The translations under genes and the position numbers were made by a program. A model generated the notes under the pieces. That model saw only the letters and a program-made list of their open reading frames with translations, had not been told where the DNA came from and did no database searches. Of a stretch of DNA of 64,000 nt, positions 26,909 through 29,900 are shown piece after piece. Source of the DNA: Ascidia mentula (Eukaryota > Chordata > Ascidiacea > Phlebobranchia > Ascidiidae); the NCBI GenBank assembly GCA_947561715.1, contig OX387204.1, positions 11,351,001 through 11,415,000 of the forward strand. The letters run 5' to 3'. The stretch's first letter is position 1. Each line of letters opens with the position of its first letter.

Positions 26909-29900
26909 ATGTTATTTTTTACACTGTGTTTTGAACACAGTGTGGTAATGATTGTTCTTTTGGTTGCGCCCAGTGTTTTGTCAGGTATTTATTTGATTTT
27001 TAATGCCTATGTTTTGGCATTTACTCAATGTAATTTTTGTTTGAAGTGTACATTTCTGATCCCCAAACAAGCACTGCAGATATTAGTGTATGTTCTCCAG
27101 TAAATAATCAATGTCCTCCAAACAAAGAATGTGTTGAAGACAAAACTTTTTTTGCCCGGTTTCGTTGTTGCAAAAAGTCAGTTTGCGCAAAAGGTACACT
27201 TTGCTCATCTCAGTTAAAAGCCAAACATATTTTGTTGTATATTAAATGTTCTGTTTATAGTGGAAGGAATATATTGTCCTGAACTGGGCAATATAGAAAA
27301 TGCAACAAGAATTCCAGCAATAAGAAAAAAAAAACATCCATTTAAACCCAAAGAGAGAGTCATTTACACTTGTGCGAAAGAATTTACGCCAAGTCACCTT
27401 ATTACTTTTTGTAATGATGATGGAAGCTGGACCATACCATCACCTCAATGCAAAAATCCTTCGTCTGGTGAAAGAGTCCTGCAACCATTAACAACCCCAA
27501 AACCACCAAAAACTGAAACACGGACAAATGAAAACATTATTGTAGCATTTGCTGCTGTTGTTGGAGTTCTCCTCTGCCTGCTGCTTGGTGGTGTTGGATG
27601 GTGTGCTTGGAGGTAAGGTGTAGTGATACTACGAACAAAAAATGTTTACACTGACAATAAGCAACACAGCAATGTTTTGTGGAATCACACGATTGGCAGG
27701 ATCTTGTCACTGTGCACAGGTCCTTACTTAGCAATCACAACTATTGTATCAAGATTATTAAGTTTACAGGCTTCACAGCCTAATAATCCAAAAAACCTCT
27801 GAAAAATCAAGCTCCTGGTGAGGGTCTTGGATCTTGTTCCAACTGCTTTGGGAAAAAATGGCTGATTCAGCTAGACTGCAATGTCTGGGCCACAAAGCCT
27901 GTAAAACTAGCAATAAGCATAGTGTATCATGTTGCAGTAGGTGTTTGGTTGCACTTTGTGTGCTTTGTAGTCTTGTTAAACTTTAGGTGTCATGCTAGCG
28001 TTAGCACACATAATTTTTTGCTTTGCAGAAAAAGAAAACATCAAAGGCAGTTTTTAAGTGTTCCAAGTCAAAGTGTTGTTTTGGAGAATAGTTATAAACC
28101 ATTTTTTTCCCAAACAGGTAACTGACAATTTAAAAGTGTGTATTTCTTGGGACATGTTCTGTACTGCAGTAAATGTTATTATCTGTCTTAGCTGATTTGA
28201 TGTCTGACGCAATTTCTGCTGAAAACTTTAAAAGTTATACTGCTCTGGGACATCACAACAATGATCAAAAATTTATAGAGGAATTTGAAGTATGTTTGAA
28301 TTTTTATCAGATTTTGAGTTTATTTTCATATCCTATTTTTTTCCAGGAAATTCAAAACCTGGATCGAAATCGCCCTCCATCACAAGCTTCATGTTTGCCA
28401 GAAAACAAAGATAAAAACAGATACATTAACATTGTAGCATGTAAGCAACTGTATCGTTTAAACATGAACCTTGTAAAAATCGTGTATAAGCTGCAGACAG
28501 ATGGCCACTGTTTCGACCTAAAAGGTCTCATCAGTGCAGCTGGTGTGACTATAAGACGACTTTGCTGTTTTCTCCGTAAGGTTGCACCTAGTTTGGTGCC
28601 CAACGGATGACGGTGATTGTATAGTCACCGCAAAGTGGAAGTCTTTGCTTGGCCGTTTGGTCAGCAAAGTCGTCTTATAGTCACACCTGCTGCACTGATG
28701 GGACCTTTTAGGTCGAAACAGTGGCCATCTGTCTGCAGCTTATACACAATTCATATTATTGGCTCCACATTGCTTATCATATGATTATTGTGACACGGGG
28801 CCTGACGGCACTATTGGTTGAGCTTGCTTGGCTGTAGTGTTTCCACCTTGTTTTCTCCGTAATGTGGCACCTAGTTTGGTGCCCAACGGATGACAGTGAT
28901 TGTATAGTCACCACAAAGTGGAAGTCTTAGCTTGGCCGTTTGGTCAGCAAAGTCGTCTTATAGTCACACCAGCTGCACTGATGAGACCTTTTAGGTCGAA
29001 ACAGTGGCCATCTGTCTGCAGCTTATACACAAATTATATTATTGGCTCCACATTGCCTATCTTATAAAAGTCTTTGATTTTCAGATGACCACAGCAGAGT
29101 GAAACTTCATCGTAATAAAACAAAGCACCAAGCGAATTCACAAGGGCTGTCAGATTATATTAATGCGAACTATGTATCAAGTTTTGAACGAGAAAGAGCT
29201 TACATAGCTTGTCAGGTTTGGTTTGAAACATTTCTATTTAAGCTAGTGAAAAACAATTTCTGTGCTGACTGCTGATAGATCTGTTTAAAATATTATAAAT
29301 ATTTTTGCAACAAGAATCTGGTTTACACTATGGATGTGCCGGAACCATTTCTGAATATGGACATTGTACATTCAAGTTGTTAAACTTATTGGGCTTGTGT
29401 CCTTGGGATCTATTCAATATAGAAAAAAATGGGATTGTACCAAACAATTAGTCGCTTCAGTGGAAATACAATTTTTGTTTGTAGTGGAAAAAGTGTTAAT
29501 TAAGACCATGATCATTAGGTTTGCAGGGTTGGTGGCCCAGGCAAAGCAGCCTAGATGGATAAGCCACCTTTTCCTGACAAGTTTTGAAAAATGAAGCTCC
29601 CAGTGAGGTTTGAACTCATGACCCTGGGCCAACCAGGCCCAACGCTCTTTAAACTGAGCTACAGGAGCTAAGTGGTTTCACGGGGTATATTATGGCCAAG
29701 GTACACTGGTGCGCAAGGGCACAACTTGCCAGGCAACCTTCACATATATGTAGGGCATCTCTACCACCATATCAGACAATGCAGTAATATTTCCTACTTT
29801 CTATCATGCCATTTGCATGAAATATTACTGCATTAAGACCATGATCTATCAAACCCAATCTTTAATCTTTTCTGTGTTGGCGCATCCCTGGTTTCACAAC

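Follow-up and report, generated by a model that had tools for sequence, protein, structure and literature searches.

Head-to-head retrozyme insertions in the ascidian Ascidia mentula point to Penelope-like elements as probable movers of small RNA circles into the genome

The window analysed here, a 64,000-nt stretch of the Ascidia mentula genome (assembly GCA_947561715.1, contig OX387204.1), includes a receptor-type PTP gene, one intron of which is largely taken up by an insertion bearing hammerhead motifs. When the exons flanking this intron (28441-29084) are joined, their translation matches Pfam Y_phosphatase (E=3.8e-13), in agreement with the first-pass annotation, which placed a sense-strand hammerhead in an intron of a receptor phosphatase gene; an exon upstream in the same gene matches Sushi. 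The distance of about 60 nt suggested between the motif and the 3' splice site was also right, as we measured 61 nt. A mechanically called 145-aa open reading frame (28173-28610) starts in a host exon, crosses the start of the intron and reaches into the insertion; most probably it is spurious. The window also encodes a TBCK protein, 70% identical to that of Phallusia mammillata and 58% to that of Ciona intestinalis. The features of the locus are given below, with unit positions (q) counted from q1, the first base past the cleavage site.

28441..29084, plus strand: host intron of the receptor-type PTP gene, 644 nt, GTAAGC...TTTCAG
28471..28481, no strand: left target-site duplication (TSD), imperfect, TTGTAAAAATC, by eye identical to the right copy at 9 of 11 positions
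28480..28567, minus strand: inverted arm of the putative retrozyme, unit positions 212..18, outer end near 16 (short end); tool boundary 28478
28496..28534, minus strand: third hammerhead core, inverted, exact 39-mer
28566..29064, plus strand: direct arm of 1.77 units, with its outer (tail) end near unit position 48-49; tool boundary 29065
28688..28740, plus strand: first direct hammerhead copy, with CTGATGG at 28695-28701 (one core base changed) and stem I one pair shorter
28734..29016, plus strand: 283-nt unit between successive cleavage sites, presumably the RNA monomer or circle
28971..29023, plus strand: intact type I hammerhead, predicted cut between 29016 and 29017
29032..29064, plus strand: tail between the two kinds of outer end (unit ~16 and ~48), putative reverse transcription start sites placed from end clusters at q14-20 and q40-51
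29062..29072, no strand: right TSD, imperfect, TTATAAAAGTC, by eye

Direct reading of the plus strand at 28971-29023 gives AGCTGCA / CTGATGA / GACC-TTTTA-GGTC / GAA / ACAG-TGGCCAT-CTGT / C^ / TGCAGCT, that is, a 7-bp stem I, a 4-bp stem II with the 5-nt loop TTTTA, a 4-bp stem III with a 7-nt loop, and GTC, exactly the perfect type I hammerhead that had been described there; from this arrangement, cleavage would be expected between 29016 and 29017. Allowing A or G at one core position, we found the 39-nt core at three places in the window (28496-28534 on the minus strand; 28695-28733, with CTGATGG, and 28978-29016 on the plus strand) and never in 100 dinucleotide shuffles. Genome-wide, we found 610 exact cores (315+295) and 1462 cores with at most three mismatches (771+691), while reversed-pattern controls gave none in either search. 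The exact 27-nt core was absent from IMG/VR and from prokaryote genome contigs, as would be expected for an animal element.

The motif fared less well in covariance-model searches. No Rfam family, Hammerhead_1 (RF00163) included, reached its gathering score in the 64-kb window, and at relaxed thresholds the motif matched only Hammerhead_3 (21.6 bits, cutoff 48.5) and RAGATH-1-hammerhead (19.8 bits, cutoff 56.3). By the test set in the first-pass annotation, where a covariance-model score below threshold was to count against the motif, the hammerhead would thus formally be refuted. However, we give more weight to the exact core and its 610 identical copies, and an Rfam cutoff is a weak test of a family of this kind. 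A scan of the same genome with RF00163 gave no match, but with 73 of 27659 candidates scored and control genomes silent it is uninformative on absence. The 53-mer reaches -17.4 in its plain minimum free energy fold as against -15.1 in the hammerhead pairing, a difference of 2.3 kcal/mol in favour of the former when tertiary contacts are left uncounted.

All three cores belong to one insertion of about 588 nt, composed of an inverted and a direct arm of a 283-nt unit. While the motif itself had been recognised correctly at first, its two further copies, the inverted arm, the borders of the insertion and the genome-wide family had all been overlooked. The final two bases of the left TSD overlap the called arm end, and the exact-match finder reported 5 nt only. 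Of the 644 nt of the intron, 588 are insert; the remaining sequence amounts to 56 nt, and to about 45 nt once one TSD copy is also deducted.

It was plausible to ask what an intact sense-strand ribozyme, 61 nt ahead of a 3' splice site, means for the PTP gene, and a host-co-opted intronic ribozyme regulating its splicing is the reading that this position would favour. Nevertheless, the core is one of 610 identical copies in the genome, it lies within a recognisable mobile insertion, and in the predicted equilibrium fold of the whole intron the inverted arm is base-paired to the second direct copy (over an expected 85.5 of 90 nt), with a probability of 0.000 for every stem pair of the hammerhead at 28971-29023. 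In this model the antisense arm upstream may mask the sense ribozyme, although the first direct copy, being transcribed earlier, could capture the inverted arm first and so free the second. We thus consider co-option very improbable; as the main reading, a gene-specific ribozyme is rejected on copy number. For the same three reasons, the earlier suggestion that cleavage could compete with splicing of the exon at 29085 finds no support, and an effect of the intronic copy on splicing is possible but unsupported. The sense hammerhead is probably incidental to the PTP gene, for which this is an ordinary case of a mobile element within an intron.

The family was sampled as the 30 best matches to the window's unit (40 of 2211 candidates being scored), 30 exact cores at the start of contig C1 and 20 further exact-core places on C1. 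These loci merge into 59 segmented stretches, 56 of which are independent as judged from 300-nt flanks, the only flank duplicates being L034/L035 and L039/L040/L041. Likewise, when the unit was masked in 39 representative loci, long shared flanks were seen only for these two groups, and a few other locus pairs share pieces of 45-292 nt, which we take as other repeats. All 59 stretches were kept for end and TSD counts, whereas L035, L040 and L041 were left out of the 56-locus haplotype analysis; stray weak matches were excluded, four for the end and TSD counts and five for the analyses of orientation, junctions, TSD AT share and haplotypes. As loci chosen by exact cores are enriched for intact ribozymes, we quote intactness from 18 arrays picked by whole-unit similarity, where 65 of 69 units have intact cores; the figure over all loci (114/119) is inflated by the choice of exact cores.

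Some copies stand apart. L039, L040 and L041 (C1:1.926, 1.956 and 1.975 Mb) share up to 1.5 kb at about 94-99% identity and represent a retrozyme fragment captured within a larger repeat. In L033, L034, L050, L052 and L058, GCAGCTTACACAA replaces GCAGCTTATACACAA right after the hammerhead, possibly marking an older subfamily. Elsewhere in the window, positions 26408-26530 contain tgacaacatgtgtattgtcacccctggatt, near-identical pieces of which flank the copy of the retrozyme at locus L036, and it probably represents a further dispersed repeat.

Mention had been made at the outset of retrozymes and Penelope-like elements (PLEs) as hosts of hammerheads, and this pointed the right way. In its sequence features, the element fits membership of the metazoan non-LTR retrozymes (Cervera & de la Pena 2020, PMC7229834). 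As these are described in passages of that paper, they carry a type I hammerhead in each unit, form tandem units of a few hundred bp, have a GC content below 50% and TSDs longer than 4 bp, and occur as many dispersed copies that coexist with PLEs, all of which are shared by the ascidian element. Here, each unit has a canonical type I hammerhead; the unit length of 283 nt is within the range of about 150-450 bp for tandem units that form dimers to multimers; GC is 0.459 and coding capacity is absent, the longest stop-free stretch of the tandem unit being 55 codons; and exact TSDs of at least 8 bp flank 38 of the 59 stretches, as opposed to 17 of 3422 mismatched control pairs, the window copy having only the imperfect one. 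An open reading frame with reverse transcriptase (RT) and GIY-YIG domains, by which a PLE is recognised, is absent from the unit.

The two-armed insertions have two unlike, nearly fixed outer ends. Among the 59 stretches, the arms run minus-then-plus in 35 and never plus-then-minus, while 24 are one-armed; with this layout, both outer ends of a two-armed insertion correspond to RNA 3'-side ends. As L034 and L035 are one duplicated region, the 35 two-armed stretches amount to 34 independent ones. By the strict score, 31 of the 35 (34 independent) have one end at q14-20 (short) and the other at q40-51 (tail). Three more combine a short end with an end called at q34-35, probably a diverged tail, and the last one (L007) combines a truncated end with a tail end; short/short or tail/tail pairs were not found among the 35. 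Under a free and even choice on each side, 31 unlike pairs out of 31 would arise with a chance of about 5e-10. One-armed stretches end short in 16 cases, in the tail in seven and otherwise in one. Exact TSDs have a modal length of 12 bp (range 8-15) and are richer in AT than the flanks (0.787 vs 0.624). The 35 head-to-head junctions are scattered along the unit, 25 with an overlap of 1-7 nt, three abutting and seven with a gap or filler. The shortest arms hold about 0.1 units and the longest 5.9; of 94 arm segments, 85 exceed 48 nt and 29 exceed one unit, so that many insertions are smaller than a dimer.

Inverted arms bordered by TSDs might seem to indicate a MITE or fold-back DNA transposon with a chance hammerhead, the arms being its terminal inverted repeats, and a sub-cutoff Rfam match to the hairpin family mir-340 does span both arms. 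Such an element should have like terminal repeats and TSDs of fixed length. The two ends described above, however, stop at different unit positions, exact TSDs vary from 8 to 15 bp, and neither the size of the arms nor the place of the inner junctions is constant. On the unlike ends and variable TSDs we rejected this reading, which appears barely credible.

The same genome contains autonomous PLEs. A GIY-YIG profile gave 121 matches, with open frames of up to 892 codons, and 23 neighbouring pairs within 6 kb are oriented minus-plus in 17 cases, plus-plus in five, minus-minus in one and plus-minus in none. One PLE ORF piece that was checked matched GIY-YIG (9.3e-07) and RVT_1 (5.2e-04, the latter under the Pfam cutoff). 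By eye, PLE 3' regions carry minimal hammerhead-like motifs, e.g. CTGAAGAAGCCTAGTCGTACGTACAGGCGAAACGTC. At C67:6134028-6146916, five PLE matches of equal score lie in the order minus-minus-plus-plus-plus, with a spacing of 2870 bp within arms.

We read both ends of eight PLE insertions, drawn in pairs from four families (C52:21.05M and C52:1.04M; C67:6.13M and C72:15.02M; C71:19.82M and L086; C1:9.84M and L083), recognising the tail by its sharing between both insertions of a family. Six of the eight were picked for head-to-head GIY-YIG matches, and the set is thus no measure of how frequent this arrangement is among PLEs; L083 and L086 were picked because both arms lie within the fetched locus. 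In all eight, one arm ends at a common point and the other continues for about 33-42 nt into the tail, and short direct repeats, mostly of 9-12 bp, lie beside the ends (by eye; weaker for C67 and L083). The likeness concerns design. In five comparisons between retrozyme and PLE tails, the best one agreed at 17 of 34 positions, equalled by 153 of 20000 shuffles (uncorrected), and no sequence link between the retrozyme and any one PLE family was found. In L082 and L089, at about 944-994 on the minus strand, a hammerhead-like stretch lies 3' of a PLE ORF and matches at 83% over 53 nt. We set aside the idea that this is the PLE's own ribozyme and, as a matter of judgement, read it as an old retrozyme copy, whose divergence hints at older retrozyme subfamilies.

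One might also propose that the retrozyme is carried by LINE-type or other machinery from a linear multimeric template, with head-to-head arms made by twin priming. LINE twin priming is compatible with TSDs of about 12 bp and with variable inner ends. On the other hand, the outer ends of the retrozyme are internal and confined to two narrow ranges some 30 nt from each other, with one end in either range in each callable two-armed insertion, the PLEs of the same genome have the same end design, and a poly(A) or simple-repeat tail was seen in none of the 39 loci with printed ends. We regard this reading as unlikely.

Each insertion carries a single haplotype on both arms. At seven polymorphic sites in the 18 arrays, with only units covering at least 60% of the sites compared, differences make up 1/333 of the comparisons between units within an arm and 0/275 of those between opposite arms, as against 3570/10308 between loci. 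With 16 sites in 56 loci, the differences are 15/827, 36/713 and 15318/62801, respectively, and the observed concordance was never equalled when left and right arms were re-paired 2000 times; over all loci, the arms of one locus thus differ in 5.1% of comparisons vs 1.8% among units within one arm. With outer ends at 14-51 nt past the cleavage site, arms copied from a cut linear monomer would be limited to about that length. Most arm segments exceed 48 nt, and the template must thus have stayed joined over the cleavage site, as a circle or an uncut multimer would be and a cut linear monomer would not. A single RNA circle would be expected to yield the same haplotype, read repeatedly, on both strands, and the template of each insertion was probably one retrozyme RNA in the form of a circle. 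It is possible, too, that a homogeneous multimer, or long uncut transcripts of already homogeneous arrays, gave homogeneous insertions, or that later gene conversion between arms was the source of homogeneity.

A related question is whether the ribozyme still matters, as an element of the same retrozyme origin might spread as uncut RNA with the hammerhead merely hitch-hiking. Hammerhead mutants of an anole PLE still insert in vitro, according to passages of PMC11167929. Moreover, although column diversity in our 18 arrays is lower in the hammerhead than elsewhere in the unit (0.0052 vs 0.0122), 59 of 283 blocks of hammerhead length have diversity as low, which gives no clear sign of selection on the ribozyme. 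Against this stand the 65 intact cores among 69 units of these arrays and the homogeneity of haplotypes, which fits circles, and loss of the hammerhead's role thus seems decidedly improbable.

We favour, with a probability of about 0.75 for the whole scheme, a non-autonomous metazoan retrozyme whose circles or other RNA would be pasted by a PLE enzyme priming on both cut strands. As in published retrozymes, transcripts through tandem units would be cut by the type I hammerhead at every unit border, and the 283-nt monomers would be closed into circles by a host RNA ligase. To judge from the anatomy of the insertions, a Penelope-like RT/GIY-YIG protein would bind one retrozyme RNA and cut an AT-rich target on both strands about 12 bp apart. 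Each target 3' end would then prime reverse transcription at a fixed internal site, near q16 on one strand and near q48 on the other. Each cDNA would run back through the hammerhead, often for more than one round, and the two would join head to head at variable points; the products of these last two steps are seen in the copies, while the steps themselves are our reading of them. In the window, such an event would have left the insert of about 588 nt in a very short PTP intron.

This proposal agrees in several respects with what passages of PMC11167929 report for the anole PLE Poseidon, whose protein cuts and extends both target strands and starts reverse transcription at two adjacent internal sites, which accounts for a genomic tail of 30-40 bp. 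Tandem copies, a hammerhead near the end and the optional 30-40-bp tail are common to Poseidon and the retrozyme, which has tandem or inverted arms with such a tail, and so would be the cutting and extension of both strands, the internal start and the AT-rich target, as far as the anatomy of retrozyme insertions indicates. In the same passages, the start site in vitro was the same on either strand and hammerhead mutations had no effect on insertion, which leaves the one-of-each rule for ends and the need for cleavage unexplained by that paper. A PLE protein, perhaps a dimer, may act on a single RNA circle, with the strands primed at two mutually exclusive start sites about 30 nt apart on the same molecule; retrozymes would then move as circles hitch-hiking on PLEs, and PLE integration would couple target-primed reverse transcription on the two strands, using one RNA for each insertion. 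To this more specific version we give even odds. The retrozyme differs from PLEs in having no stop-free stretch longer than 55 codons and a canonical rather than minimal hammerhead: it works like a PLE but is not one.

With the plant LTR retrozymes, as presented in parts of PMC4918200, the element shares a hammerhead-bounded unit and, as we infer for the ascidian element, a circular RNA intermediate; type III hammerheads, LTRs with PBS and PPT, and 4-bp TSDs are features of the plant elements' own (passages of PMC7229834). A tunicate likewise, the ascidian Didemnum vexillum has type I hammerheads at nine loci, and the relevant passage of PMC8704543 gives this count only, without unit, array or insertion structure. 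Compared with the metazoan retrozymes in the sections of PMC7229834 cited here, the ascidian two-armed insertions are distinguished by being head-to-head with two unlike, nearly fixed ends, and the main text of that paper has no occurrence of "inverted", "tunicat", "ciona" or "ascidi". Retrozymes as a class were known before, as were PLE tails. Within an incomplete search that covered part of the retrozyme and PLE literature, we met neither head-to-head retrozyme insertions, nor the one-short-one-tail rule, nor the single-haplotype test, and found no ascidian or tunicate retrozymes or hammerheads described with such insertion structure.

How animal retrozymes move has so far been a guess in print: passages of PMC7229834 name autonomous PLEs as strong candidate movers because of shared hammerheads, tandem copies and coexistence. 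The genome of A. mentula adds three marks to this idea, namely unlike, nearly fixed ends in every two-armed insertion with both ends callable (31), the same end design in eight of the genome's PLE insertions, and a single haplotype per insertion across both arms. Together, they make the claim that PLEs mobilise retrozymes directly testable, and they also constrain the integration of PLEs themselves, pointing to both strands, two start sites and one RNA. The arrangement of the copies points to Penelope-like elements as the likely means by which small RNA circles enter the DNA of this ascidian.
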